DNA of 64,000 bases from Nitrospira sp. KM1 (GTDB lineage: Bacteria; Nitrospirota; Nitrospiria; Nitrospirales; Nitrospiraceae). This document shows positions 37,029-48,015 of this stretch, piece by piece. The notes beneath the pieces are model-generated. The model saw only the letters and a program-made list of their open reading frames with translations. It did no database searches and was not told the origin of the DNA. Position 1 is the first letter of the stretch, and every line of letters starts with the position of its first letter. The stretch is taken from contig NZ_AP022671.1 in NCBI RefSeq assembly GCF_011405515.1, forward strand, positions 3,906,001 through 3,970,000, read 5' to 3'. Both the position numbers and the translations under genes were made by a program.

Positions 37029-38045
37029 ATGTCTGAACAAGAACGTGTAACGATTGGTCGGCGGAATAATGTTTCCCCTGTATGGGAAGAGGCCAATGCA
37101 CGGCTTCTGCGCCTACATTCCGGCCTGATGTCCGAAGCAGAACATCAAGAATTGGCGAAGTGGCGTGAAGATTCAGCCCATGAACTTGAATTTCGTCAGG
37201 CTGAGCTGTTCTGGAATGCGCTGGACGGATTGGGAGGGCAGGTCTCTCGTCCGATTACAACCGTACTGACGGGACAGGTTCGGCCTGCGGCCAAGGCCGC
37301 ATCGTACGACCCGTCGAGAACCCGATTCGGATCATGGCGTCGATTCTCATTGGCCGCTGCAGCCATGGTGCTGACGGTTGTCCTGGTCTCGGTTCTGTGG
37401 TCTGCTGTTGACTTCTGGCTGAGCGACTATCGTACATACACCGGAGAGCAGACGTCCGTGGCCCTTGCCGATGGCTCGACTGTGTACCTGAACACGCAAT
37501 CCGCTTTGTCAGTGGATTTATCCGCCAGTCGTCGTGCACTTGTGCTCAAACGGGGAGAGGCCTTGTTCGAAGTCGCTCATGATCCCTCAAGACCCTTTGA
37601 CGTGAGTGTCAACGGCGTGGTTGTGCGGGCTGTCGGGACGACGTTCAACATCGATGCTCACGGCAAAATGACCGCTGTCAGCGTCATTGAAGGGGCTGTG
37701 AGATTAGTCGATCAAGGGGCGCAATATGACATACCTGCAGGGTATCGTCTCGCATATGAATCGGGATCTCGCCCCGGTGCTATTGAACCGATCAGCCCAC
37801 CGAAAGTGACCGCTTGGCGTCAACACGAGTTCCTATTTGACGACATGCCGCTGGACAAGATCGTCGCGCAGTTGAATCGCTATCGATCTGGGGCAATTGT
37901 TGTTATGGATTCGAAACTCAGATCTCAACGATTGACGGGGAGCATTGCCCTCGATAACCCTGAGCATTCTCTCAAAATGCTTCAGCAGGTACTGCCATTT
38001 CATGTCAGGCAAGTGACGCCCTACCTCACGCTCATTTCCTCCTGA
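37029..38045 (+). CDS. FecR-type sigma factor regulator
   Basis: 338 residues from ATG 37029. The N-terminal domain (WEEANARLLRLHSGLMSEAE ... LAKWREDSAHELEF) is more diverged than in the other six FecR proteins. Membrane helix: FSLAAAAMVLTVVLVSVLWS. FecR domain: YRTYTGEQTSVALADGSTVY and LKRGEALFEVAHDPSRPFDV. STN-like end: LFDDMPLDKIVAQLNRYRSG. Divergence together with a FecA-like receptor suggests that this whole cassette has a separate origin. Confidence 0.91.
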   Translation: MSEQERVTIGRRNNVSPVWEEANARLLRLHSGLMSEAEHQELAKWREDSAHELEFRQAELFWNALDGLGGQVSRPITTVLTGQVRPAAKAASYDPSRTRFGSWRRFSLAAAAMVLTVVLVSVLWSAVDFWLSDYRTYTGEQTSVALADGSTVYLNTQSALSVDLSASRRALVLKRGEALFEVAHDPSRPFDVSVNGVVVRAVGTTFNIDAHGKMTAVSVIEGAVRLVDQGAQYDIPAGYRLAYESGSRPGAIEPISPPKVTAWRQHEFLFDDMPLDKIVAQLNRYRSGAIVVMDSKLRSQRLTGSIALDNPEHSLKMLQQVLPFHVRQVTPYLTLISS

Positions 38046-38106
38046 CTCCCTGGACACCAGAGCATTCGTCCAATAGGTACGATCGGCATAAGCTATGACG
38101 AAATTT

Positions 38107-38165
38107 TGAGAATGATTGTAAAAAATATTCATATCGAGTAGGGAAACCCATATTCCCATGTCGTC
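38107..38165 (+). promoter_or_regulatory. Fur-like half site and candidate ECF promoter before receptor 38218
   Basis: TGAGAATGATTGTAAAAAAT (38107-38126) matches the left half of a Fur box (GAGAATGAT). Its A6 tract (38120-38125) lies 42 nt before CGTC (38162-38165), with GGAAAC at 38142. The same A-tract/CGTC spacing occurs at 12106, 13245 and 45373. Overlap of a Fur half site with an ECF promoter would give double iron control. Confidence 0.4.
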
Positions 38166-38217
38166 CTTTGTCCTGAGGTGTCCGACAAGCGCGGGTTCAT
38201 CAGGGAAAGGAGTCTGT

Positions 38218-40776
38218 ATGTGGAGGGTACGAGCGTTCTTGCTTGTTTTGGTATGGGTAGTGATAGGGGAGGGATTCGACCAGGATGCCTTCGCCCAACA
38301 ACCGGTTGGACTACGAGGTGGCATCATCGCATTTGATATTCCGCCACAACCTCTGCCTATGGCGCTGAACACATTTCGTGAACAGAGCGGGGTGCGATTT
38401 CTTCATCGGGCCGAGCTGACACAATCACAACAGTCTCAAGGAGTGGTCGGCCGATACTCAGCGGAAGACGCGCTCTCTATTCTACTCCAGGGTACGGGAT
38501 TGACCTTCTACGTTGCAGAAACCGACACCGTGATTCTCGAGAGGGCGTCGTCTTCAGATGTAGGACCAGCGATCCCTCTAGCGGCAACGCCAACCGGCGA
38601 AGAAACCTTAAAAGTGCCCCTGGTCGAAGTGATTGGAACCGCGCCCAATGCACTCGATCACATACCGGGATCCGGCCGTGTTGTGACGAGCGAATCGATT
38701 CAGAACAATCGCCGCTTTACCATCAATGAAGCGCTGCGCGAAGTGCCGGGAGTGCATGTGCGCGATGAGGAAGGATTCGGATTGCGCCCCAACATCGGTG
38801 TTCGCGGTCTGAATCCGACAAGGAGTTCGAAGCTTCACATCATGGAAGACGGCGTGCCGATCATGATCATGCCGTACGGCGACTCCACATCATATTATTT
38901 TCCTCCACTGTTCCGATTCGATCGTATCGAGGTATTGAAGGGAAGCGGACAGCTTCTCTACGGTCCTCAAAATATCGGCGGGGTCATGAATCTCATCACA
39001 AGAAATCCCCCAGCCACTCCCGAAGGTCATTTGGAGGTCAGGGGCGGGAGTCTCAGCTATCTCATGACCCATCTGGATTATGGAGGGACGTGGGGCACCG
39101 GAGGCTACTATGCCGACTATACTCATTACCAGGGAACAACCCCTCGGTTTTTCAATCAGCGCGCAGAGGTCGATGACGTCACATTTAAGACGGTTCAAGA
39201 GATCAGTCAGCGCTCGTCCATTATGGCAAAGTTCAACTACTACCGAGAGGATTCGACCATCGGTTATCAGGGTATCTCGCAGTTTCAATACAACACCAAT
39301 CCTCGCAACAACGGCTTCAACAACGATGCCTTCGATTTTCGGCGCATCGGCATGCAAGTCGCACATCAATACATGTTCACGGCGAATCTGAATGTCACTA
39401 CGAATTTCTTCGGCCACTACATATCCCGAGACTGGGGACGTCAGAGCACGGATCTTGACGGCAACCCGGCGACCGCCAATCCTTCGTTTAATACCGGGAA
39501 TACCATCAATGGAAGTGCGACGCAGGCTATTCCCACGAATGGCCGGTTCTTGAACGCGCGTGATTATTTTGTATACGGCGTGGAACCCCGTTTTCATTAC
39601 GACCACAGTCTATTCGGCATTAAATCTGAGGCGGACTTCGGAGCCAGATTTATGCACGAAGAGTCGACGAGACGGCAGTTCCAGAACTTGACGTCAGGAA
39701 TAGGGCTCACCTGTCCTACGACCCAAACCGGTTGCCTTGGTGAGGATACCTTTCGTACGACCAATGCCTATGCGTTCTTCTTCCAGGACAAGTTCTATTT
39801 TATGCAGGACAAGATTACCGTGACTCCTGGCGTTCGAGTTGAACAGGTGAATTACGACCAGAACAACAGGCTGGCGAATGGAGGGACGGGAGCATATTCG
39901 AGCGCTCATACGATCGAACCCATGCCTGGAATCGGTGTGACGTATACGCCGGTAAAGGACTATACCTTTTTCGGCGGCGTTCATCGGGGGTTCGCCCCTC
40001 CAACCATTCCTGACGCGGTACAAATCGTCAATGGTGTTCAAGCCGATTTGAACGCAGAACTGAGTTGGAATTATGAGCTCGGAGTTCGCGGAACGCCGAC
40101 CAAGTGGGCGGGGTTCGAATTCACTTTGTTTCAGATGGATTTCCAGAATCAGGTCATCGCACAGTCTTTGGCTGGTGGTTCAGGAGCCACACTTACGAAT
40201 GGCGGGCGCACGCGCCATCGAGGGCTCGAGTTTGCGACGAAAATCGATTTGCTCGATATGGTGACCGGGCAGAATCCTGATCAGGACATTATTTTTGACG
40301 TCAATTACACGTGGGTGGCTGATGCGGAATTCCGCGGCACCAGATTCAGCAATCTGAACTGTAATCCGCTCGCGGCAGGAGGAAACAACAACTGTCCACT
40401 GTTGCCCGGAGAGCCGGCGGTCGTCAGTGTGAGCGGGAATCGCTTGACCTATGCTCCGAAGCACTTATTGTCTGCGGGTCTTGGATATAACAATCGTACC
40501 ATCGGCTTTAACGCCCGCGTTGAAACGCAGTGCATCAGCGACCAGTTCAGCGACGATCGCAATACGGTGAATGCGACACCGAATGGTCAACGCGGAATTA
40601 TTCGGGGTTGGTGCATCCTGAACGCCGTGGCGAACCAGTATGTGAAGCCAATCAAGACGACGTTCTTCCTGGATGGCAAGAACCTGTTGGATCAACTCTT
40701 TATTGTCGATCGCTCCCGCGGTATCTATCCGGGATTGCCGCTCCTGGTTCAAGGGGGTGCGCGATGGACGTTCTGA
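38218..40776 (+). CDS. FecA-like TonB-dependent receptor (ferric citrate type) with STN domain
   Basis: 852 residues from ATG 38218, with AAGGAG eight bases upstream. Signal peptide MWRVRAFLLVLVWVVIGEGF...AFAQ. STN: FDIPPQPLPMALNTFREQSG. In place of the KPVKVPE block it has LKVPLVEVIGTAPNALDHIP. The plug is of FecA type: EALREVPGVHVRDEEGFGLR, IGVRGLNPTRSSKLHIMEDG and SYYFPPLFRFDRIEVLKGSG. Barrel to GLPLLVQGGARWTF. It is the only one of the seven receptors in this subfamily, and a citrate-like ligand is likely by homology. It differs from its neighbours in sequence but keeps the same gene order. Confidence 0.92.
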   Translation: MWRVRAFLLVLVWVVIGEGFDQDAFAQQPVGLRGGIIAFDIPPQPLPMALNTFREQSGVRFLHRAELTQSQQSQGVVGRYSAEDALSILLQGTGLTFYVAETDTVILERASSSDVGPAIPLAATPTGEETLKVPLVEVIGTAPNALDHIPGSGRVVTSESIQNNRRFTINEALREVPGVHVRDEEGFGLRPNIGVRGLNPTRSSKLHIMEDGVPIMIMPYGDSTSYYFPPLFRFDRIEVLKGSGQLLYGPQNIGGVMNLITRNPPATPEGHLEVRGGSLSYLMTHLDYGGTWGTGGYYADYTHYQGTTPRFFNQRAEVDDVTFKTVQEISQRSSIMAKFNYYREDSTIGYQGISQFQYNTNPRNNGFNNDAFDFRRIGMQVAHQYMFTANLNVTTNFFGHYISRDWGRQSTDLDGNPATANPSFNTGNTINGSATQAIPTNGRFLNARDYFVYGVEPRFHYDHSLFGIKSEADFGARFMHEESTRRQFQNLTSGIGLTCPTTQTGCLGEDTFRTTNAYAFFFQDKFYFMQDKITVTPGVRVEQVNYDQNNRLANGGTGAYSSAHTIEPMPGIGVTYTPVKDYTFFGGVHRGFAPPTIPDAVQIVNGVQADLNAELSWNYELGVRGTPTKWAGFEFTLFQMDFQNQVIAQSLAGGSGATLTNGGRTRHRGLEFATKIDLLDMVTGQNPDQDIIFDVNYTWVADAEFRGTRFSNLNCNPLAAGGNNNCPLLPGEPAVVSVSGNRLTYAPKHLLSAGLGYNNRTIGFNARVETQCISDQFSDDRNTVNATPNGQRGIIRGWCILNAVANQYVKPIKTTFFLDGKNLLDQLFIVDRSRGIYPGLPLLVQGGARWTF

Positions 40777-40978
40777 GCTGAAAAATTTGACTTCTAGTCG
40801 AACGGGAAATCAGCGCGCACGGGCTGTCCTCAAAGATCGGGAACCTCGTCGCGGTACAGCGTGATTGCGGTGATGTGGCGACAACGTAACTTTATCCGCT
40901 CGAAAACATGTCCCGAAATGATTGGATTGTGCAGGAACATGCGATGCGAAGCGGATCTGCTGCTTGTTTGACGAGCCC

Positions 40979-40994
40979 TGTTATGTGTATAACA
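40979..40994. promoter_or_regulatory. Zur box-like palindrome before the ZIP transporter
   Basis: TGTTATGTGTATAACA is a perfect inverted repeat (TGTTAT/ATAACA, 4-bp spacer), close to the proteobacterial Zur core TGTTATANTATAACA and followed by TTGC. A -35 (TTGACG, 40968-40973) and a -10 (TAACAT at 40990) frame it, so a bound repressor would block the promoter. The rest of 40777-41097 shows nothing recognisable. Confidence 0.6.
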
Positions 40995-41097
40995 TTGCCC
41001 GCTTAAAGAGTGGGCGTGTCTCTGATCGTGTCAGCGTCAAGACGCGCATTAAGGGCACGATCTAAATGCTGGTCAACAAGTTCATGCGGGGTTGCCA

Positions 41098-41853
41098 ATG
41101 ATCGATCTCATCGGGTTAGGCTTCATTGCCGGTGTCATTCCCGTATATGCAGGGATCGTTGTAGCCCTAGTACTGGGTAAGGTATTGCCTCGCACCTGGG
41201 AAGGAGGCTTGATCGGGATCGCTACCGGCGTGCTCGTGTATTTGTTCTTTGATCTGATGCACGAATCAGTCGAGCTGACTGGTGCACGCGATCCGATCTC
41301 GTGGCTGGTATTTTTGGGCAGTCTGGGTATCAGTTTTGTCGGCCTCGTGGCCTTCGAGAGAAATCAAATGGTCGGAAGTCGTCGTGCTCCAAGTCGATGG
41401 GCCACCTTGCCGTATATGATTGCGATCGGCATGGGGTTGCATAATCTTGGAGAGGGACTGGCTATCGGGGCAAGTTATGCAAATGGGGAGTGGGTTTTGA
41501 GTGCACTGCTAGTGGCTGGTTTCGGTTTCCACAATGGAACAGAGGGATTTGGTATCGTCGGTGCTGCAGGCAAAAACTCTGTGACGGGCACCGATGCTCT
41601 TCTGTTGGGTTTAGTGGCCGGTGCCCCCACGTGTCTAGGCACCTTGTTAAGCGGGCAAGGATTATCACCGTATTTTACGATTCTGTTTTATACATTCGCC
41701 GCTGGATCGCTACTGTATGTCGTGTTCACTCTCACCGCAATGTCCTATACCGCAACTCGCCGGCTCCAAATGGCCTTTGGCGTCTTCATGGGCATCAGCC
41801 TCATGTATATCACCGCCATGGTTCTGACCCTCGTCGGCGGCATCAAGACGTAG
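41098..41853 (+). CDS. ZIP-family metal transporter
   Basis: 251 residues from ATG 41098 (GCGGGG upstream); TTG 41092 is an alternative. Eight hydrophobic segments can be traced. The metal-site helices are intact: MGLHNLGEGLAIGASYANGE (helix 4) and FGFHNGTEGFGIVGAAG (helix 5), with the histidines and glutamates that bind the ion in the ZIP channel. A further HES motif lies in FDLMHESVEL. Zinc import is most likely, supported by the Zur-like operator upstream, but iron or manganese cannot be excluded. It is followed by the predicted Fur-regulated transcript. Confidence 0.9.
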   Translation: MIDLIGLGFIAGVIPVYAGIVVALVLGKVLPRTWEGGLIGIATGVLVYLFFDLMHESVELTGARDPISWLVFLGSLGISFVGLVAFERNQMVGSRRAPSRWATLPYMIAIGMGLHNLGEGLAIGASYANGEWVLSALLVAGFGFHNGTEGFGIVGAAGKNSVTGTDALLLGLVAGAPTCLGTLLSGQGLSPYFTILFYTFAAGSLLYVVFTLTAMSYTATRRLQMAFGVFMGISLMYITAMVLTLVGGIKT

Positions 41854-41887
41854 GTTTCTCGCTTAAAAAAATAGTTCGGAAAACTGC

Positions 41888-41928
41888 TTGACACTACGCT
41901 CACTAAATGATATTGAGAATACATATCA
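41888..41928 (+). promoter_or_regulatory. Sigma70-type promoter overlapped by a Fur box
   Basis: -35 TTGACA (41888-41893, consensus), 17-bp spacer, extended -10 TGATATTGA (hexamer TATTGA, 41911-41916), with an A7 tract just upstream as UP element. TGATATTGAGAATACATATC plus A (41908-41928) matches the 21-bp Fur consensus at 16 positions and covers the -10 and start site. This is the expected layout of an iron-repressed promoter. Confidence 0.7.
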
Positions 41929-42007
41929 AATAGTGATCGCTTGTGAGGCCAGCGGTCTCAAGGACCTGAGCCCAAGGTTAGAACGGTTATACCTTGGGCT
42001 TTCGTTT
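41923..42007 (+). ncRNA. Candidate Fur-repressed small RNA (or operon leader)
   Basis: The promoter at 41888 would start transcription near 41923. An intrinsic terminator ends at about 42007, giving a transcript of roughly 85 nt. No ATG-started frame with a ribosome site lies between them. The 5' part (ATAGTGATCGCTTGTGAGGC ...) is predicted to be mostly unpaired up to a short hairpin GGTC-TCAAG-GACC at 41954-41966. Size, terminator and Fur control resemble RyhB/PrrF-type iron-sparing RNAs, but no homology is claimed. Alternatively it is an attenuated leader of the small-gene operon starting at 42082. Confidence 0.55.
41969..42007 (+). terminator. Rho-independent terminator
   Basis: Perfect 10-bp stem AGCCCAAGGT (41969-41978) / ACCTTGGGCT (41991-42000), 12-nt loop, followed by TTCGTTT, which with the last T of the stem gives a U-rich tail. 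It is the strongest hairpin-plus-tail structure I found in the window. Confidence 0.75.
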
Positions 42008-42081
42008 ACTCAGGAATGCTTGGGACTCTGGCGCGATGGCGGTGAAGAGCATTTTACACGTGAAACCAATGGAGCATATCT

Positions 42082-42273
42082 ATGATGCATCAAGCCAGAT
42101 CTCGGGGAAGTGAATCATGCCAGCGATGCAGAGGATTGCTGGTGGTGGACAAGCGATTGGATTTCTATGGATCGCTACCTGCGTGGAAATGTGTGAATTG
42201 CGGATGGTGTTCGGAGGTACAGCATGCGCAGTCGAATCATTCGCACGCAACGGCAAGGGGAGCCTACAAATAA
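42082..42273 (+). CDS. Small zinc-ribbon protein
   Basis: 63 residues from ATG 42082 (second ATG at 42085; TGGAGC upstream). Two CxxC knuckles: CQRCRGLLVVDKRLDF and WKCVNCGWCSE. Same architecture as the 84-residue protein at 60515 (CRRCQGCMTQDHFVDL, SWRCINCGYVLDP) and the 54-residue one at 43082. These are probably structural zinc or metal-binding domains. First of a row of very small genes after the predicted Fur-regulated transcript. Function unknown. Confidence 0.78.
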   Translation: MMHQARSRGSESCQRCRGLLVVDKRLDFYGSLPAWKCVNCGWCSEVQHAQSNHSHATARGAYK

Positions 42274-42299
42274 ACGGATCCACTAAAGGAGAGACACGA

Positions 42300-42812
42300 A
42301 TGAAACAGAACGGTTCATATGTGTTGAATTTTCGAGGGCCCGCATTGGTGGGGCAGCAACTGACGTTCGTACACGGGAAGCAGTTCGAAGGACGCACGAT
42401 GGCATTGTGCTTTCTGCCGTATGCGGGTTTGATTGCTCCAGATAAGGCAGATCATGCGTCGGAACAGTTCGAGTTCGTGGGTACCACCCTCGTGATCGTT
42501 GTTTCGGGTGCATATCCCATGCATAGGCTATGGAGTCCTCATAGTGAAAAGCCCAGAACGACGATTTTGGCTGATCCTTGTGGCCGGCTTCATCGGTCGT
42601 TTGGCGTCATGGATTCGCAGCCGTCGTCTCGATGCCGGACCTTCCTGATCGATCGCGAGGGAATCCTCCGTCTCAGAGTGACTCATGATTTCATCGAACA
42701 GGATCTCGAGGCGATTCGGACCATCGCCGGTTTAAGCCACCACCCGTCGCTTCGCGGCAATGGAACCACAGAACCGGCTTGTAATGTCCATATGGAGTAT
42801 TTGCCGGTGTAG
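42300..42812 (+). CDS. Peroxiredoxin-like (AhpC/TSA fold) protein without peroxidatic cysteine
   Basis: 170 residues from ATG 42300, with AAAGGAGAG upstream; an earlier in-frame ATG at 42117 lies inside the zinc-ribbon gene. The thioredoxin-fold landmarks are present: TMALCFLPYAGLIAPDKADH, TTLVIVVSGAY, ILADPCGRLHRSFGVMDS and CRTFLIDREGILRLRV. At the active-site loop, where peroxiredoxins have PxxxTxxC, this protein has P-YAG-L-IA-P, so both Thr and Cys are replaced. It may be a binding protein, or may use another cysteine (C107 or C125 by rough count). Function unknown. Confidence 0.7.
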   Translation: MKQNGSYVLNFRGPALVGQQLTFVHGKQFEGRTMALCFLPYAGLIAPDKADHASEQFEFVGTTLVIVVSGAYPMHRLWSPHSEKPRTTILADPCGRLHRSFGVMDSQPSSRCRTFLIDREGILRLRVTHDFIEQDLEAIRTIAGLSHHPSLRGNGTTEPACNVHMEYLPV

Positions 42813-42861
42813 CCGCGCCATTGCAAAGCCACGCGCATTACTTAATCAATGGAGGGGTACG

Positions 42862-43065
42862 ATGCTCGGTCACGGTCAGGGCAAACTTGCGATGTGCGGA
42901 TGCGGGAAATGTCATTTCACCTATGGATCCGTCACATTACATTTTGACAGGGAAGAGTTTCTCCTTTTCGCGGATTCCGTGGGGCGCTTGGGCGCTATGA
43001 TCAGACAGGTCGGTCAGGAGCCGGCCGCGTCATGGCATCCCCCGAGTGCCAATACCTGTCACTAA
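42862..43065 (+). CDS. Small cysteine/histidine-containing protein
   Basis: 67 residues from ATG 42862 with GGAGGGG upstream. It reads MLGHGQGKLAMCGCGKCHFT, then YGSVTLHFDREEFLLFADSV. The CGCGKCH cluster followed by a GSVTLHFDREEF strand-helix resembles small DUF6686-like proteins found near iron genes in other phyla; the match is by pattern only. The cluster could bind iron or zinc. It lies 49 bases after the peroxiredoxin-like gene and 16 before the next small gene. Confidence 0.7.
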   Translation: MLGHGQGKLAMCGCGKCHFTYGSVTLHFDREEFLLFADSVGRLGAMIRQVGQEPAASWHPPSANTCH

Positions 43066-43081
43066 CTAGGGGACACGTCCG

Positions 43082-43246
43082 ATGAAGATTCGTCATTGTC
43101 CACGCTGTCAGCGAAACAGCCTTTATCAGACCGGCGCATTCTGGGCTTGTGGAGTGTGCGGGTACGCCATCACTCAAAGTGCCTTACTGGTAGATGAGTC
43201 GAGGGGCAAGAGATCCCAACCTGGAAACTTGAATCCGAATCCCTAA
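43082..43246 (+). CDS. Small zinc-ribbon protein
   Basis: 54 residues from ATG 43082: MKIRHCPRCQRNSLYQTGAF, then WACGVCGYAITQSALLVDES. Two CxxC pairs form a zinc ribbon like those at 42082 and 60515. It begins 16 bases after the previous stop. The C-terminal tail is basic and proline-rich (RGKRSQPGNLNPNP). Function unknown; probably co-transcribed with its neighbours. Confidence 0.68.
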   Translation: MKIRHCPRCQRNSLYQTGAFWACGVCGYAITQSALLVDESRGKRSQPGNLNPNP

Positions 43247-43272
43247 GAAGAGGGGATGGCAGGAAGCACTTG

Positions 43273-43392
43273 ATGGATAAATTGCGTTCACGTCTGAAAG
43301 ACGAACTGGCAGTAGGCCTCAGTCTCGCGGCTGCGCTAGGAATGATCATCGGTGCAATCGCCACCATCTGGATCCGTAGCGTCGCGTCATGA
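43273..43392 (+). CDS. Single-pass membrane microprotein
   Basis: 39 residues from ATG 43273, with AGGAAG six bases upstream. A charged start (MDKLRSRLKDELA) is followed by a transmembrane segment of about 20 residues (VGLSLAAALGMIIGAIATIW) and a short basic end (IRSVAS). The stop overlaps the next possible start (ATGA at 43389). A clear ribosome site and typical topology support a real gene. Confidence 0.6.
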   Translation: MDKLRSRLKDELAVGLSLAAALGMIIGAIATIWIRSVAS

Positions 43393-43553
43393 GAACAGCC
43401 GATTCGTGCACATATACCCATTGCATCCAATCACTCGAGTGGCTTCAGACATACAGGACGATCACGCATGTGACTGGAGCAGTCGAAGGTCAAATTCTCA
43501 AAGTGCGAATCCCTCTTTCTGATAACACCCGTTGCCATGCCTCCGAGGTCTAG
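43389..43553 (+). CDS. Possible translationally coupled small protein
   Basis: 54 residues from ATG 43389, which overlaps the microprotein stop by one base pair step (ATGA). Sequence MRTADSCTYTHCIQSLEWLQ ... ITHVTGAVEGQILKVRIPLS. Three cysteines. No recognised domain. It is listed because of the overlap and the absence of a competing frame; it could be chance. Confidence 0.4.
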   Translation: MRTADSCTYTHCIQSLEWLQTYRTITHVTGAVEGQILKVRIPLSDNTRCHASEV

Positions 43554-43757
43554 ACTTTTGATCAGGTACAGACGTACAATCATCCACCACTGAGACTGTT
43601 TCTCAAAATCATGGTATGGTTGGAATGGTCACGTCGACAGGGCTTGCAGGTGGATACAGTCCAATGCAGTTGGAGAAGCAATTAGCATCAACGCGTGACG
43701 GGGGATGATTCAGTATCTTTTGGCATGACACCCCCGGATGCCAACGACTCTATAGCC

Positions 43758-44273
43758 ATGAATCTAAGTTACGAAGACATCGAGCATCTCTTTCATGAAC
43801 ATCGATATGAAGTTACGCGTTCGCTCTACCGAATGGTGAGGTGTGAGCAAACGGCAGCGGATCTCACGCAGGAAACATTCATGCGATTAGTCAATTTGGC
43901 GCAAACCAGTTCGGTTATGTATCCGCGGGCGCTCTTATTCAAGACAGCCACCAACCTTGCTATCGACTACCTTCGGAAAGGCAAGTCTGAGCAACACAGT
44001 GGCGAAGCCCTTGAGCTCGCTTTGGAAGTTCCGTCCGGAGCCCCATCAGCGGAACGGACTATCCTGGACAAGCAACGGCTTCAGATTTTCTTGAACGCCA
44101 TAAATACCCTGCCACAGCGCAGCCGCGAAGCATTTCTTCTTCATCGGGTGCATGACTGCTCGTATCGAGAAATCGCAACACGGTTGAACATTTCGGAAAG
44201 CGCGGTCGAAAAGTTGATCATGCGTGCGCTGCTGTACTGTAGGCGGGCTCTTCAAGAGCATGACACGGACTGA
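43758..44273 (+). CDS. ECF sigma factor, FecI type
   Basis: 171 residues from ATG 43758 (MNLSYEDIEHLFHEHRYEVT). This start aligns with the start of the 11596 protein; GTG 43695 and ATG 43725 are alternatives. Region 2: QTAADLTQETFMRLVNLAQT and LLFKTATNLAIDYLRKGKSE. Region 4: TLPQRSREAFLLHRVHDCSY then REIATRLNISESAVEKLIMR. It is the only sigma gene in the array without a recognisable CYGGAAA-N3-AACATTCC motif upstream. Confidence 0.91.
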   Translation: MNLSYEDIEHLFHEHRYEVTRSLYRMVRCEQTAADLTQETFMRLVNLAQTSSVMYPRALLFKTATNLAIDYLRKGKSEQHSGEALELALEVPSGAPSAERTILDKQRLQIFLNAINTLPQRSREAFLLHRVHDCSYREIATRLNISESAVEKLIMRALLYCRRALQEHDTD

Positions 44274-44362
44274 GGTGAGGGACTGGCACGTGGATTCGTC
44301 ACAAGGATATACTCGGCCCCTTGGTGTCGTTCCGCGCAGTTTAAACCCGTCAGGCTGTCGTC

Positions 44363-45364
44363 ATGTCGCCAGATTCCGATTCGCAGAAGTCTTCACGTCC
44401 TACGGACGACGACCATGCAATAGCTGAGGAAGCGGCCCGCTGGTTTGTCCGCCTTCGTGCTCAAGACATATCAACTGATGAGCGCCGAGCGTTTGAACGC
44501 TGGCGGGCGCAGCGTTCCCTTCACGATCGTGCCTACAGGGAGATCTGTGATCTTTGGAATGATGCTGCCTTCAACGCGGCCTCCATACAAAGCGAAGAAG
44601 AGGGATCTCATGCATCAAGCCGGTTTCCATTCAGAATCTGGCGTCGATCAAATTTCACCCGATATCTTGCAGCCGCGGCCATTGCAGGCCTGCTAATTGT
44701 TCTCGGGCTACAATTTGACCTCCCGCTCCTGTTTACAGCTGAATATCGGACGGCGACAGGGGACAGGCGCGTCATCTCTTTGCCCGATCAATCGCTTGTA
44801 ACCCTTAATACCCACAGCGCCATTTCGACTGATTTTCTCCCGCATGAACGTCGCATCCATCTGCTGAGTGGAGAGGCGCACTTCAAAGTTCATTCCGACG
44901 AACGGCGGCCTTTCGTAGTCGACCACCATCATATCCATTCCCGCGCCGTCGGCACGTCCTTTGTGGTTCGGGAGGAGGCTCAGGGTATCCGCCTTACGGT
45001 TGCAGAAGGGGTCGTCGAGTTATCTCCACGGGAGGGCTCTTGGAACTCTTTGCAAGTAACGGCGGGTCAACAAGTACTTGTCGATCAGGATGGGCCAGGG
45101 CCGATACGGCCTGTGGACATACACGCCGTAACTGGATGGATGCGCGGACGGCTCGTTTTCGACAATGTGTCGTTAGAACAAGTCGTGACGGAGATCCGGC
45201 GCTATCACAATGGATTGATCATATTATGGAACCCGGCTCTGGCTAATATACGTGTCAGTGGCAGTTATAATCTCTCGGATACGACCGCCATTCTTACCAC
45301 CCTTACACAAACCCTTCCGATTCATCTGACACGGCTCACAGACCGTCTAGTGATCCTTTTTTAA
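44363..45364 (+). CDS. FecR-type sigma factor regulator
   Basis: 333 residues from ATG 44363. FecR_N: IAEEAARWFVRLRAQDISTD ... FERWRAQRSLHDRAY. Membrane helix: YLAAAAIAGLLIVLGLQFDL. FecR domain: YRTATGDRRVISLPDQSLVT and LLSGEAHFKVHSDERRPFVV. STN-like end: VFDNVSLEQVVTEIRRYHNG. It is closest to the 12208 protein. Partner of sigma 43758 and receptor 45487. Confidence 0.92.
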   Translation: MSPDSDSQKSSRPTDDDHAIAEEAARWFVRLRAQDISTDERRAFERWRAQRSLHDRAYREICDLWNDAAFNAASIQSEEEGSHASSRFPFRIWRRSNFTRYLAAAAIAGLLIVLGLQFDLPLLFTAEYRTATGDRRVISLPDQSLVTLNTHSAISTDFLPHERRIHLLSGEAHFKVHSDERRPFVVDHHHIHSRAVGTSFVVREEAQGIRLTVAEGVVELSPREGSWNSLQVTAGQQVLVDQDGPGPIRPVDIHAVTGWMRGRLVFDNVSLEQVVTEIRRYHNGLIILWNPALANIRVSGSYNLSDTTAILTTLTQTLPIHLTRLTDRLVILF

Positions 45365-45372
45365 ACAATCAG

Positions 45373-45418
45373 TAAAAATTTTCTCAAACCGGGTGAGGGA
45401 AAACTCTCTCAGGCCGTC
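45373..45418 (+). promoter_or_regulatory. Candidate ECF-type promoter before receptor 45487
   Basis: TAAAAA at 45373-45378 lies 42 nt before CGTC (45415-45418), with GGAAAA starting at 45398. Same geometry as at 12106, 13245 and 38120. Placed 69 bases before the receptor start. Confidence 0.35.
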
Positions 45419-45486
45419 ATTAGAGGGCAATCCATTTTATTTTGTCTTGATTAGCTCTTTCATGTCGAACCGGGGGAGAGACTCCA

Positions 45487-48015
45487 ATGGGAAGTCATGT
45501 TTCATATAGAACAGTCGTCATCATATTCTTATGTTTGGCTATGTCGATCATGCACGTCGCTTTGCCGGCATCAGCCCAATCCGCGGCGAATGCTAGGACA
45601 GGGGAGGTGGCTGCGACCACCTACGACATTCCTGCGCAGCCTCTGACCTCGGCCCTGAACGCGTTCGCGGAAACATCCGGTCTTCAGGTGAGTTTCCCTT
45701 CCGAGTTGGCAACCGGCGTCGATTCTCCGGGATTGAACGGCAGCTATACGCCGGCGGCGGCGCTCGACACACTTCTCGGAGGCACCGGACTCGGGTATCG
45801 GTACACGAATCCACACACAGTCACCCTGACCAATAAACAAACATCACAATTAATGCTGACGCAGGAACAGGATGCTCAAGGGGCCGTACAGGCCGATTCG
45901 CCTGCTCCTGCAGCCACGAAACCCGTCAAGGTGCCGGAAGTGATAGTCAAAGATGTCAGAGAACGAGACGATACCTATGTCAATGAGGATGCAAGCACGG
46001 CGACAAGACTTCCGGTTCCCATTCAGGACATGCCGAAGTCAATTGAAACGGTCACACGTCAGGTCATATCGGATCAGAGGGTGATTCGACTGGAAGATGC
46101 CCTCAGAAACGTCAGCGGTACATTTGCTCCAAACAACAATGGTGGGAGAGCGGCCGACTTCACAATACGTGGCTTCCAAAGCGGCTTGAACGTGTTCAAA
46201 AATGGCTTCCGCGACGATAGCACTTTCGGGGGCCGAGCGGCTAGAGACATCCTGAATCTGCAAAACGTGGAAGTAGTGAAAGGACCACCCTCCTATCTCT
46301 ATGGCCGATCGGATCCGGGTGGTGTCATCAATCAAATTACCAAAGATCCTCTGAAGACCCCATATTATTCCGGGGAGATGATCATCGGCAGTTATGATCT
46401 CTATCGGCCGACCATGGACATCGGCGGTCCGATGAATGAGAGCAAGACACTTACCTACCGGTTAAACGCGCTGTACGAAACCGCTGGCTCCTATAGAGAG
46501 GGTGTGCGAAGTCAGCGCATCTTTATCGCGCCGACCTTAGGATGGGATATCGGATCACGCACCACTCTCCGGTTTGAGGGAGAATATCTTTATAACAATG
46601 CACCGATCGATCGGGGACTCGTTGCCTATGGAAATGGGGTTGCTCCAATTCCCATCGGCCGTTTTCTGGGGGATCCTAACAGGAAGCTTGAAGTCAATCA
46701 GGGGAAAGCGACTCTGATATTGATCCATCAGTTCAATGATATGTTCAAATATCGGAGCGCATTTCGTGCAGCGGTGTCAAAGCAACGATATTCAAGCCTT
46801 GAATCGAACTTTCTTGATGAAGCGACTGGAGACTTGAATCTTGCAAGGTACGAATTGCCCGGGCTGTTCCAAAGTCACTACTGGCAAAACGAAATCCATG
46901 GGAAATTTGCGACCGGCTCGATTAAACATACCGCGTTGATCGGAGTCGAGTTGGGCAGAGAAGCGACGACCCAACAGGCCGCCGGGGATTTTGGAACCAA
47001 CTTAAGCTTCATCAATATTTTCAACCCCAATAGTCGTCTCTTTGTTGACGGTCCGATATCAAAGTTCAATGACTCATCTCAGACGAATAACATTTTGGGT
47101 GCGTATTTCGGCGATCAAATCGATCTCTTGGATAACCTGCATCTCCATGCGGGAGGCCGATTCGATCTATTCGAGCAGAAGTTGACGAATCGCCCCACTG
47201 ATTTTTCGCCGAATCAAACGACTGACAGCCAAACAGACCGAGCTTTCAGTCCTTCGGTCGGCCTCTCGTACAATATTGTGAAACAAGTAGCTGTCTATGC
47301 CAACTGGACCACTTCCTTCGCCCCCCAAGTGGGAGGGTCGAGAAGCGTTGACGGCAATCTCTTCAGTCCAGAGCGTGGGCGTTCTTACGAGGGTGGTCTG
47401 AAGTTTCAGACCGCCGATCACCGGGTTCGTTCCACGTTAGCTGTGTTCGAAATCACAAAAAAGAATGTCTTAACAGCTGATCCAACACAGCCACCTGGAT
47501 CTGGTTTCTCCGTAGCGACCGGCGAACAGCGGAGTAAGGGCGTGGAGTTTGACGTGGCCGGTCAAATACTGCCCGGGTGGGATGTGATCGGAAATTATGC
47601 GTATGTTGATGCACGGGTCACGCAGGATCCTCAATTCGTCGTTGGGAGCAGGCTTCCCAATGTCCCTCTCCATCAAGGAAGTCTCTGGACAACTTATTTC
47701 TTCCAGGAGGGGGTGGCCAAAGGTTTTGGAGCCGGGATTGGAATGTACGCCCAGGGGAAGCGCCAAGGGCTTCTCTCTTGTCAGGATCCGACATTGTGCC
47801 AGGCACCCTTTGACTTGCAGGGATTCGTGCGAATGGACGCAGCGCTCTATTATCGCAAGCCGGAATTTTTTAACAGAACCAATCTCCATGCCGCGATCAA
47901 TTTCACCAACCTCCTTGATCAACGCTATTTCACAGGCGTAGGAAACTTCCGCGAAGTCGTCTACACTGGTGCGCCGTTGACGGTTATTGGGTCTATTAAA
48001 CTGGAATTTAACTAA
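45487..48015 (+). CDS. TonB-dependent siderophore receptor with STN signalling domain
   Basis: 842 residues from ATG 45487, with GGGGGAGAG upstream. Signal peptide ending ALPASAQSA. STN: YDIPAQPLTSALNAFAETSG. The linker is Gln/Ala-rich without the long Gly runs of the others. KPVKVPEVIVKDVRERD occurs near residue 148. Plug: PKSIETVTRQVISDQRVIRL and VEVVKGPPSYLYGRSDPGGV. Barrel to TVIGSIKLEFN. Near its end a CQDPTLCQAPF loop has a likely disulphide. Closest relative in the window: the truncated receptor at 2-925. Last cassette of the array; an RND pump follows. Confidence 0.93.
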   Translation: MGSHVSYRTVVIIFLCLAMSIMHVALPASAQSAANARTGEVAATTYDIPAQPLTSALNAFAETSGLQVSFPSELATGVDSPGLNGSYTPAAALDTLLGGTGLGYRYTNPHTVTLTNKQTSQLMLTQEQDAQGAVQADSPAPAATKPVKVPEVIVKDVRERDDTYVNEDASTATRLPVPIQDMPKSIETVTRQVISDQRVIRLEDALRNVSGTFAPNNNGGRAADFTIRGFQSGLNVFKNGFRDDSTFGGRAARDILNLQNVEVVKGPPSYLYGRSDPGGVINQITKDPLKTPYYSGEMIIGSYDLYRPTMDIGGPMNESKTLTYRLNALYETAGSYREGVRSQRIFIAPTLGWDIGSRTTLRFEGEYLYNNAPIDRGLVAYGNGVAPIPIGRFLGDPNRKLEVNQGKATLILIHQFNDMFKYRSAFRAAVSKQRYSSLESNFLDEATGDLNLARYELPGLFQSHYWQNEIHGKFATGSIKHTALIGVELGREATTQQAAGDFGTNLSFINIFNPNSRLFVDGPISKFNDSSQTNNILGAYFGDQIDLLDNLHLHAGGRFDLFEQKLTNRPTDFSPNQTTDSQTDRAFSPSVGLSYNIVKQVAVYANWTTSFAPQVGGSRSVDGNLFSPERGRSYEGGLKFQTADHRVRSTLAVFEITKKNVLTADPTQPPGSGFSVATGEQRSKGVEFDVAGQILPGWDVIGNYAYVDARVTQDPQFVVGSRLPNVPLHQGSLWTTYFFQEGVAKGFGAGIGMYAQGKRQGLLSCQDPTLCQAPFDLQGFVRMDAALYYRKPEFFNRTNLHAAINFTNLLDQRYFTGVGNFREVVYTGAPLTVIGSIKLEFN

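Follow-up and report, generated by a model that had tools for sequence, protein, structure and literature searches.

RyhB in Enterobacteria and PrrF in Pseudomonas are RNAs of ~80–120 nt that are expressed from a Fur-repressed promoter, end at a 3' terminator and are encoded by free-standing genes; PrrF also occurs in tandem. Terminator-type orphan riboswitch candidates and protein-responsive attenuators combine conserved unpaired bases and covarying helices with a terminator placed shortly ahead of the start codon, and occur in several phyla around one physiological theme. More generally, a recurrent module close upstream of start codons in which conserved unpaired bases accompany a terminator has the usual anatomy of an attenuator or riboswitch. 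Nitrospira, a leading group of nitrite oxidisers, depend on iron-rich enzymes. No description of RNA-level iron control in Nitrospira was found in the literature searched, and searches of three surveys of structured RNAs yielded nothing relevant on iron, TonB, Fur or Nitrospira (PMC11109978, PMC8632094, PMC2864571). The published transcriptome of N. moscoviensis had small RNAs removed (PMC6606698).

The locus analyzed here lies within a 64,000-nt stretch of the Nitrospira sp. KM1 genome (hereafter, the window). With RyhB and PrrF it shares a predicted Fur-repressed promoter, the length and the 3' terminator, and the paired boxed copies seen in some genomes recall the tandem arrangement of PrrF. 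Unlike these RNAs, the module described below has no Rfam match, and its copies are located in gene leaders, preceding same-strand genes; Hfq was not found here, nor were targets in a search with one 10-mer. The orphan riboswitch candidates and attenuators are similar in all the properties listed above, but the module is very small (~45 nt before the tail) and the one alternative fold considered for it is energetically unfavourable. The features of the locus are the following.

41098–41853, + strand: upstream gene for a ZIP-like transporter (PF02535 at 5e-7, below the cut-off)
41888–41893 and 41911–41916, + strand: predicted promoter, TTGACA, 17-nt spacer and TATTGA (from the sequence and the conservation of TTGAC)
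41908–41928, + strand: predicted Fur-type operator that extends across the -10 (unchanged behind the ZIP gene of four relatives; 37.6 of 38.7 with the matrix)
41945–41953, + strand: unpaired 5' element GAGGCCAGC, consensus GAGGCCAGA (alignments A1 and A3; R3 match)
41954–41966, + strand: predicted hairpin 1, GGTC at 41954–41957 with GACC at 41963–41966 (three of the four pairs changed on both sides)
41967–42008, + strand: GAGCCC, predicted intrinsic terminator hairpin and T-rich tail (from the sequence and pairing across 67 copies)
42082–42273, + strand: first gene downstream of the proposed leader, encoding a CxxC/zinc-ribbon-like protein of 63 aa (no family match)
42300–42812, + strand: AhpC/TSA-like (peroxiredoxin-like) gene of the same operon (PF00578 at 1.5e-4, below the cut-off)
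42862–43065, + strand: 67-aa CGCG protein of the same operon (no Pfam or NCBIfam match)

The ZIP gene and the small-gene operon are surrounded by an iron-uptake island (37029–48015) with two FecR genes, two TonB-dependent receptors and one ECF sigma gene.

The sigma70 promoter reported in the preliminary description holds, with two corrections. The TTGACA hexamer, the 17-nt spacing and a TG one base upstream of the -10 are present, and TTGAC is conserved in relatives, but the -10 hexamer TATTGA taken alone is weak (3/6), and generic scans of the window picked up neither a promoter nor a terminator element here; the support for both elements thus comes from conservation. Behind the ZIP gene of six relatives (G005, G053, G090, G091, G074 and G001), TTGAC is always located 14–15 nt upstream of the Fur-type box, which has no mismatches in the first four and 1–2 mismatches in the last two. 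The bases around the box vary between these relatives while the box and its spacing from TTGAC stay fixed, suggesting that the promoter-operator is real. Transcription would start at ~41922–41924.

The box itself, TGATATTGAGAATACATATCA, matches TGATAATGATAATCATTATCA at 16/21 positions, the single such match in the window, with none in ten Markov surrogates. Scored against a matrix derived from 21 sites in other genomes, it reaches 37.6 of 38.7, followed in the window by 18.4 (before fecI, 43591) and then by 1.3. A scan with the strict Fur consensus and up to 3 mismatches allowed finds nothing in the window, the local box differing from that consensus at 5 positions. The Fur box over the -10, as originally read, is borne out, and the operator is predicted to be bound by Fur. 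At 43591–43611, in front of the ECF sigma gene, there is a second predicted Fur-type box, TGAGACTGTTTCTCAAAATCA; unlike in the fecI leaders of related genomes, the R3 search found no module after this box in the window.

Downstream of the box, most relatives carry a second conserved block that consists of GAGGCCAGA, a short hairpin, RGAGCCC and a terminator. In the window, this module spans 41945–42008 (R3 match of 48.3 bits), with a 4-bp hairpin 1 and a terminator stem in which AGCCCAAGGT (41969–41978) pairs with ACCTTGGGCT (41991–42000) over 10 bp, followed by TTCGTTT. The copy in the window has diverged from the rest of the family: it carries GCG for GAG and an imperfect U-tract. The 88-nt RNA folds better than its shuffles (z -3.0), and the 5' part upstream of the module is longer, variable and not conserved between copies. 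All four signals on which the preliminary description relied (promoter, Fur box, a short gene-free interval and a terminator) are found where it placed them, including the 10-bp stem and T-rich tail, but the conserved part at 41945–41968 and the existence of a multi-copy RNA family escaped it.

The consensus fold was derived from a first alignment of 31 copies made without structure, in which compensatory changes are already visible. In the 67-copy alignment, which like the other larger ones was fitted to a covariance model, a procedure that favours structure, 97% of cells are paired, 10 of the 17 pairs have changed on both sides, and cells changed on both sides number 137 vs 23 in shuffles. 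The terminator hairpin contributes 7 of 13 pairs with two-sided changes (97.9% of cells paired), and hairpin 1 contributes 3 of 4. Sliding the pairing partners abolishes the signal, and addition of distant copies to the alignment gives the same picture. Both hairpins covary strongly. The search of related genomes for the promoter, Fur box and terminator and for covariation, as the preliminary description suggested, shows that the promoter and Fur box are kept and that in most relatives a covarying two-hairpin module including the terminator accompanies them. The segment 41945–42008 is a real copy of a recurrent family of small structured RNAs, apparently undescribed.

With the covariance model R1, matches were obtained in 140 of the 175 family genomes, and multiple matches in one genome are common; R2 detects the module in 133 of the 396 genomes available for the phylum. 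A scan with a strict pattern, covering 84,980 genomes, yielded 67 stretches, mostly from Nitrospira, with others from MAGs named Deltaproteobacteria, Myxococcota, Chloroflexi and Elusimicrobia. Most of these stretches score 35–50 bits with R2; a Clostridia stretch does not and is probably a chance match. In one order outside the phylum, the module was found in 9 of 35 genomes. No Rfam family scored above its gathering threshold for the module, in the window, in the stretch L002 that holds the KM1 copy or in other copies. Weak covariance matches to NsiR1 (RF02399), the cyanobacterial nitrogen-stress sRNA, were obtained for two copies (24.5 and 30.2 bits), but these scores are below the gathering score of 39, NsiR1 belongs to other taxa, and the matches probably reflect shared terminator features only. 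We propose that the module represents a new orphan leader-RNA family; no description of it was found in the open-licence literature, and an earlier description elsewhere is possible.

The KM1 genome contains three R1 matches, the window copy included, and five R2 matches, three of them with a position among the matches listed. The other two copies among these, 3428469–3428528 and 2879883–2879944, both precede AraC-type genes, and the only two Fur-family genes found in KM1 are located within ~1.5 kb of these two copies; a ferritin-domain gene lies near the former.

A Fur-type box occurs within 170 nt of 16 of the 26 copies that were fetched by the RNA model alone (hand-counted from the list, with loci fetched by the box pattern left out), vs 1.6% of control stretches. 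Some module copies lack such a box. Conversely, G005 and G001 keep the promoter and the Fur-type box behind the ZIP gene but lack the module there (L004 8996 and L066), so that the operon can do without it; in both of these genomes the module is present before fecI, and in G001 also before tonB.

Nearly all examined copies precede same-strand genes, and the terminator often ends 12–30 nt before the start codon. Flanks were read and the downstream DNA was compared with reference proteins. In 71 of the 91 aligned copies, a recurring gene type is encoded on the same strand within 1.5 kb, namely, the small-gene operon (22), FecI-type sigma (15), HD-GYP (14), AraC (7), TonB (5), diheme-like (5), TonB receptor (2) and CbiX-like (1); given that the reference classes were picked from these same loci, some of which are duplicate records of one genome, these counts are a description rather than an enrichment test. 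Homologous small-gene operons are found behind other class A copies, and a relative of the 67-aa CGCG protein is encoded 10 nt behind the module in a deltaproteobacterial MAG (L204). The copies associated with FecI-type ECF sigma genes carry a Fur-type box, one of them (L004) also a TAGACA-17-TATAAT promoter, and the HD-GYP copies are located between genes, without a box. Outside the phylum, copies lie 3' of genes for Fur or FTR1, or 5' of those for ExbB or cupredoxin (all Pfam-confirmed). The Chloroflexi copies (L157, L172) are found between TetR-like and acyl-CoA dehydrogenase-like genes, as read from the sequence, with no evident iron genes, indicating that the iron link of the module is not universal.

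In other Nitrospirales (L185, L187, L213, L219, L222), the module is located 3' of a gene for a conserved 170-aa membrane protein, and in several of these it precedes a diheme-peroxidase-like gene; neither protein has a Pfam match.

From these comparisons we consider it probable that the element is a cis-acting transcription attenuator under Fur control, serving as 5' leader to the small-gene operon that begins at 42082. An attenuated leader of this operon had been mentioned only as an alternative in the preliminary description, and it fits best, with copies located in leaders and terminators often 12–30 nt ahead of start codons. When iron is scarce, Fur would leave the operator at 41908–41928 and transcription would start near 41923. 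Some 80 nt further, the polymerase would reach the end of the module (GAGGCCAGA, hairpin 1, GAGCCC and the terminator), which would either halt transcription or be passed, providing a second, RNA-level control of the operon besides Fur. Readthrough would presumably depend on recognition of the conserved single strands and hairpin 1, either by a ligand or by an RNA-binding factor, for which GGCCAGAG and the second CAGAG are possible sites. In two loci (L068, L138), the module begins 8–9 nt after the box, which leaves no room for a leader peptide and rules out leader-peptide attenuation as the general mechanism. An antiterminator formed by pairing of GAGGCC with GGCUUU is energetically poor: for this one candidate, forcing GGCC onto GGCU costs 4.6–16 kcal/mol. 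No convincing alternative antiterminator fold was found, with this one candidate, made by the 5' strand, considered.

The reading originally favoured for this locus was a trans-acting, iron-sparing sRNA of the RyhB/PrrF kind, that is, a Fur-repressed RNA of ~85 nt that ends at the terminator and silences mRNAs of iron-using proteins by base pairing. Fur control and a structured RNA with a terminator at its end are both supported by conservation across dozens of genomes. The promoter, the length and the terminator fit, and a leader released at the terminator would itself be an RNA of this kind; two boxed copies ~1.1 kb apart, furthermore, occur in some genomes. The action in trans, in contrast, is less likely, with copies located in same-strand leaders of several gene types and 5' parts that are variable. 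Hfq (PF17209) was not found in the KM1 genome, which is 99.99% complete, and was found in 5 of 14 control genomes. Sites complementary to a 10-mer of the conserved strand are not in excess (15 vs 23 for the reversed control, one 10-mer searched). The proposed covariance search with RyhB and PrrF models was negative both in the window (at gathering score) and in L002 (with E up to 2). We therefore regard a purely trans-acting RNA as quite unlikely. An attenuator in cis whose released 85-nt leader additionally acts in trans would yield a product that is abundant under iron starvation, and the conserved unpaired GAGGCCAGA could serve as a pairing or protein-binding site; the one-10-mer search and the search for Hfq speak against this combination as well, and we consider it quite improbable.

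The terminator is the strongest part of the module and, with no antiterminator found, might be passive, insulating the operon or fixing a low level of readthrough, and possibly spread as a repeat. However, a bare terminator needs neither the invariant GGCCAGAG nor a covarying first hairpin, and the module recurs before iron genes in several phyla, so this explanation carries little probability. With respect to the nature of the signal read by the proposed attenuator, the module is a candidate iron- or heme-sensing RNA, and its small size makes it amenable to direct testing in vitro. A more speculative extension, which we put forward tentatively and deem rather unlikely, is that it constitutes a new, very small riboswitch class that senses Fe2+, heme or another iron-linked metabolite. 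Such a class would supplement Fur control in Nitrospirota with a checkpoint at the RNA level, and it would also be present in the FTR1/Fur operons of other phyla. A leader RNA that recurs in iron-related operons of several phyla would amount to a new layer of regulation alongside Fur.

Two Fur-type boxes ~1.1–1.3 kb apart were observed in several loci (L070, at 2096 and 3169, L076, L078 and L082). In these pairs, the second box is followed by a longer (~150 nt), partly conserved leader before fecI.
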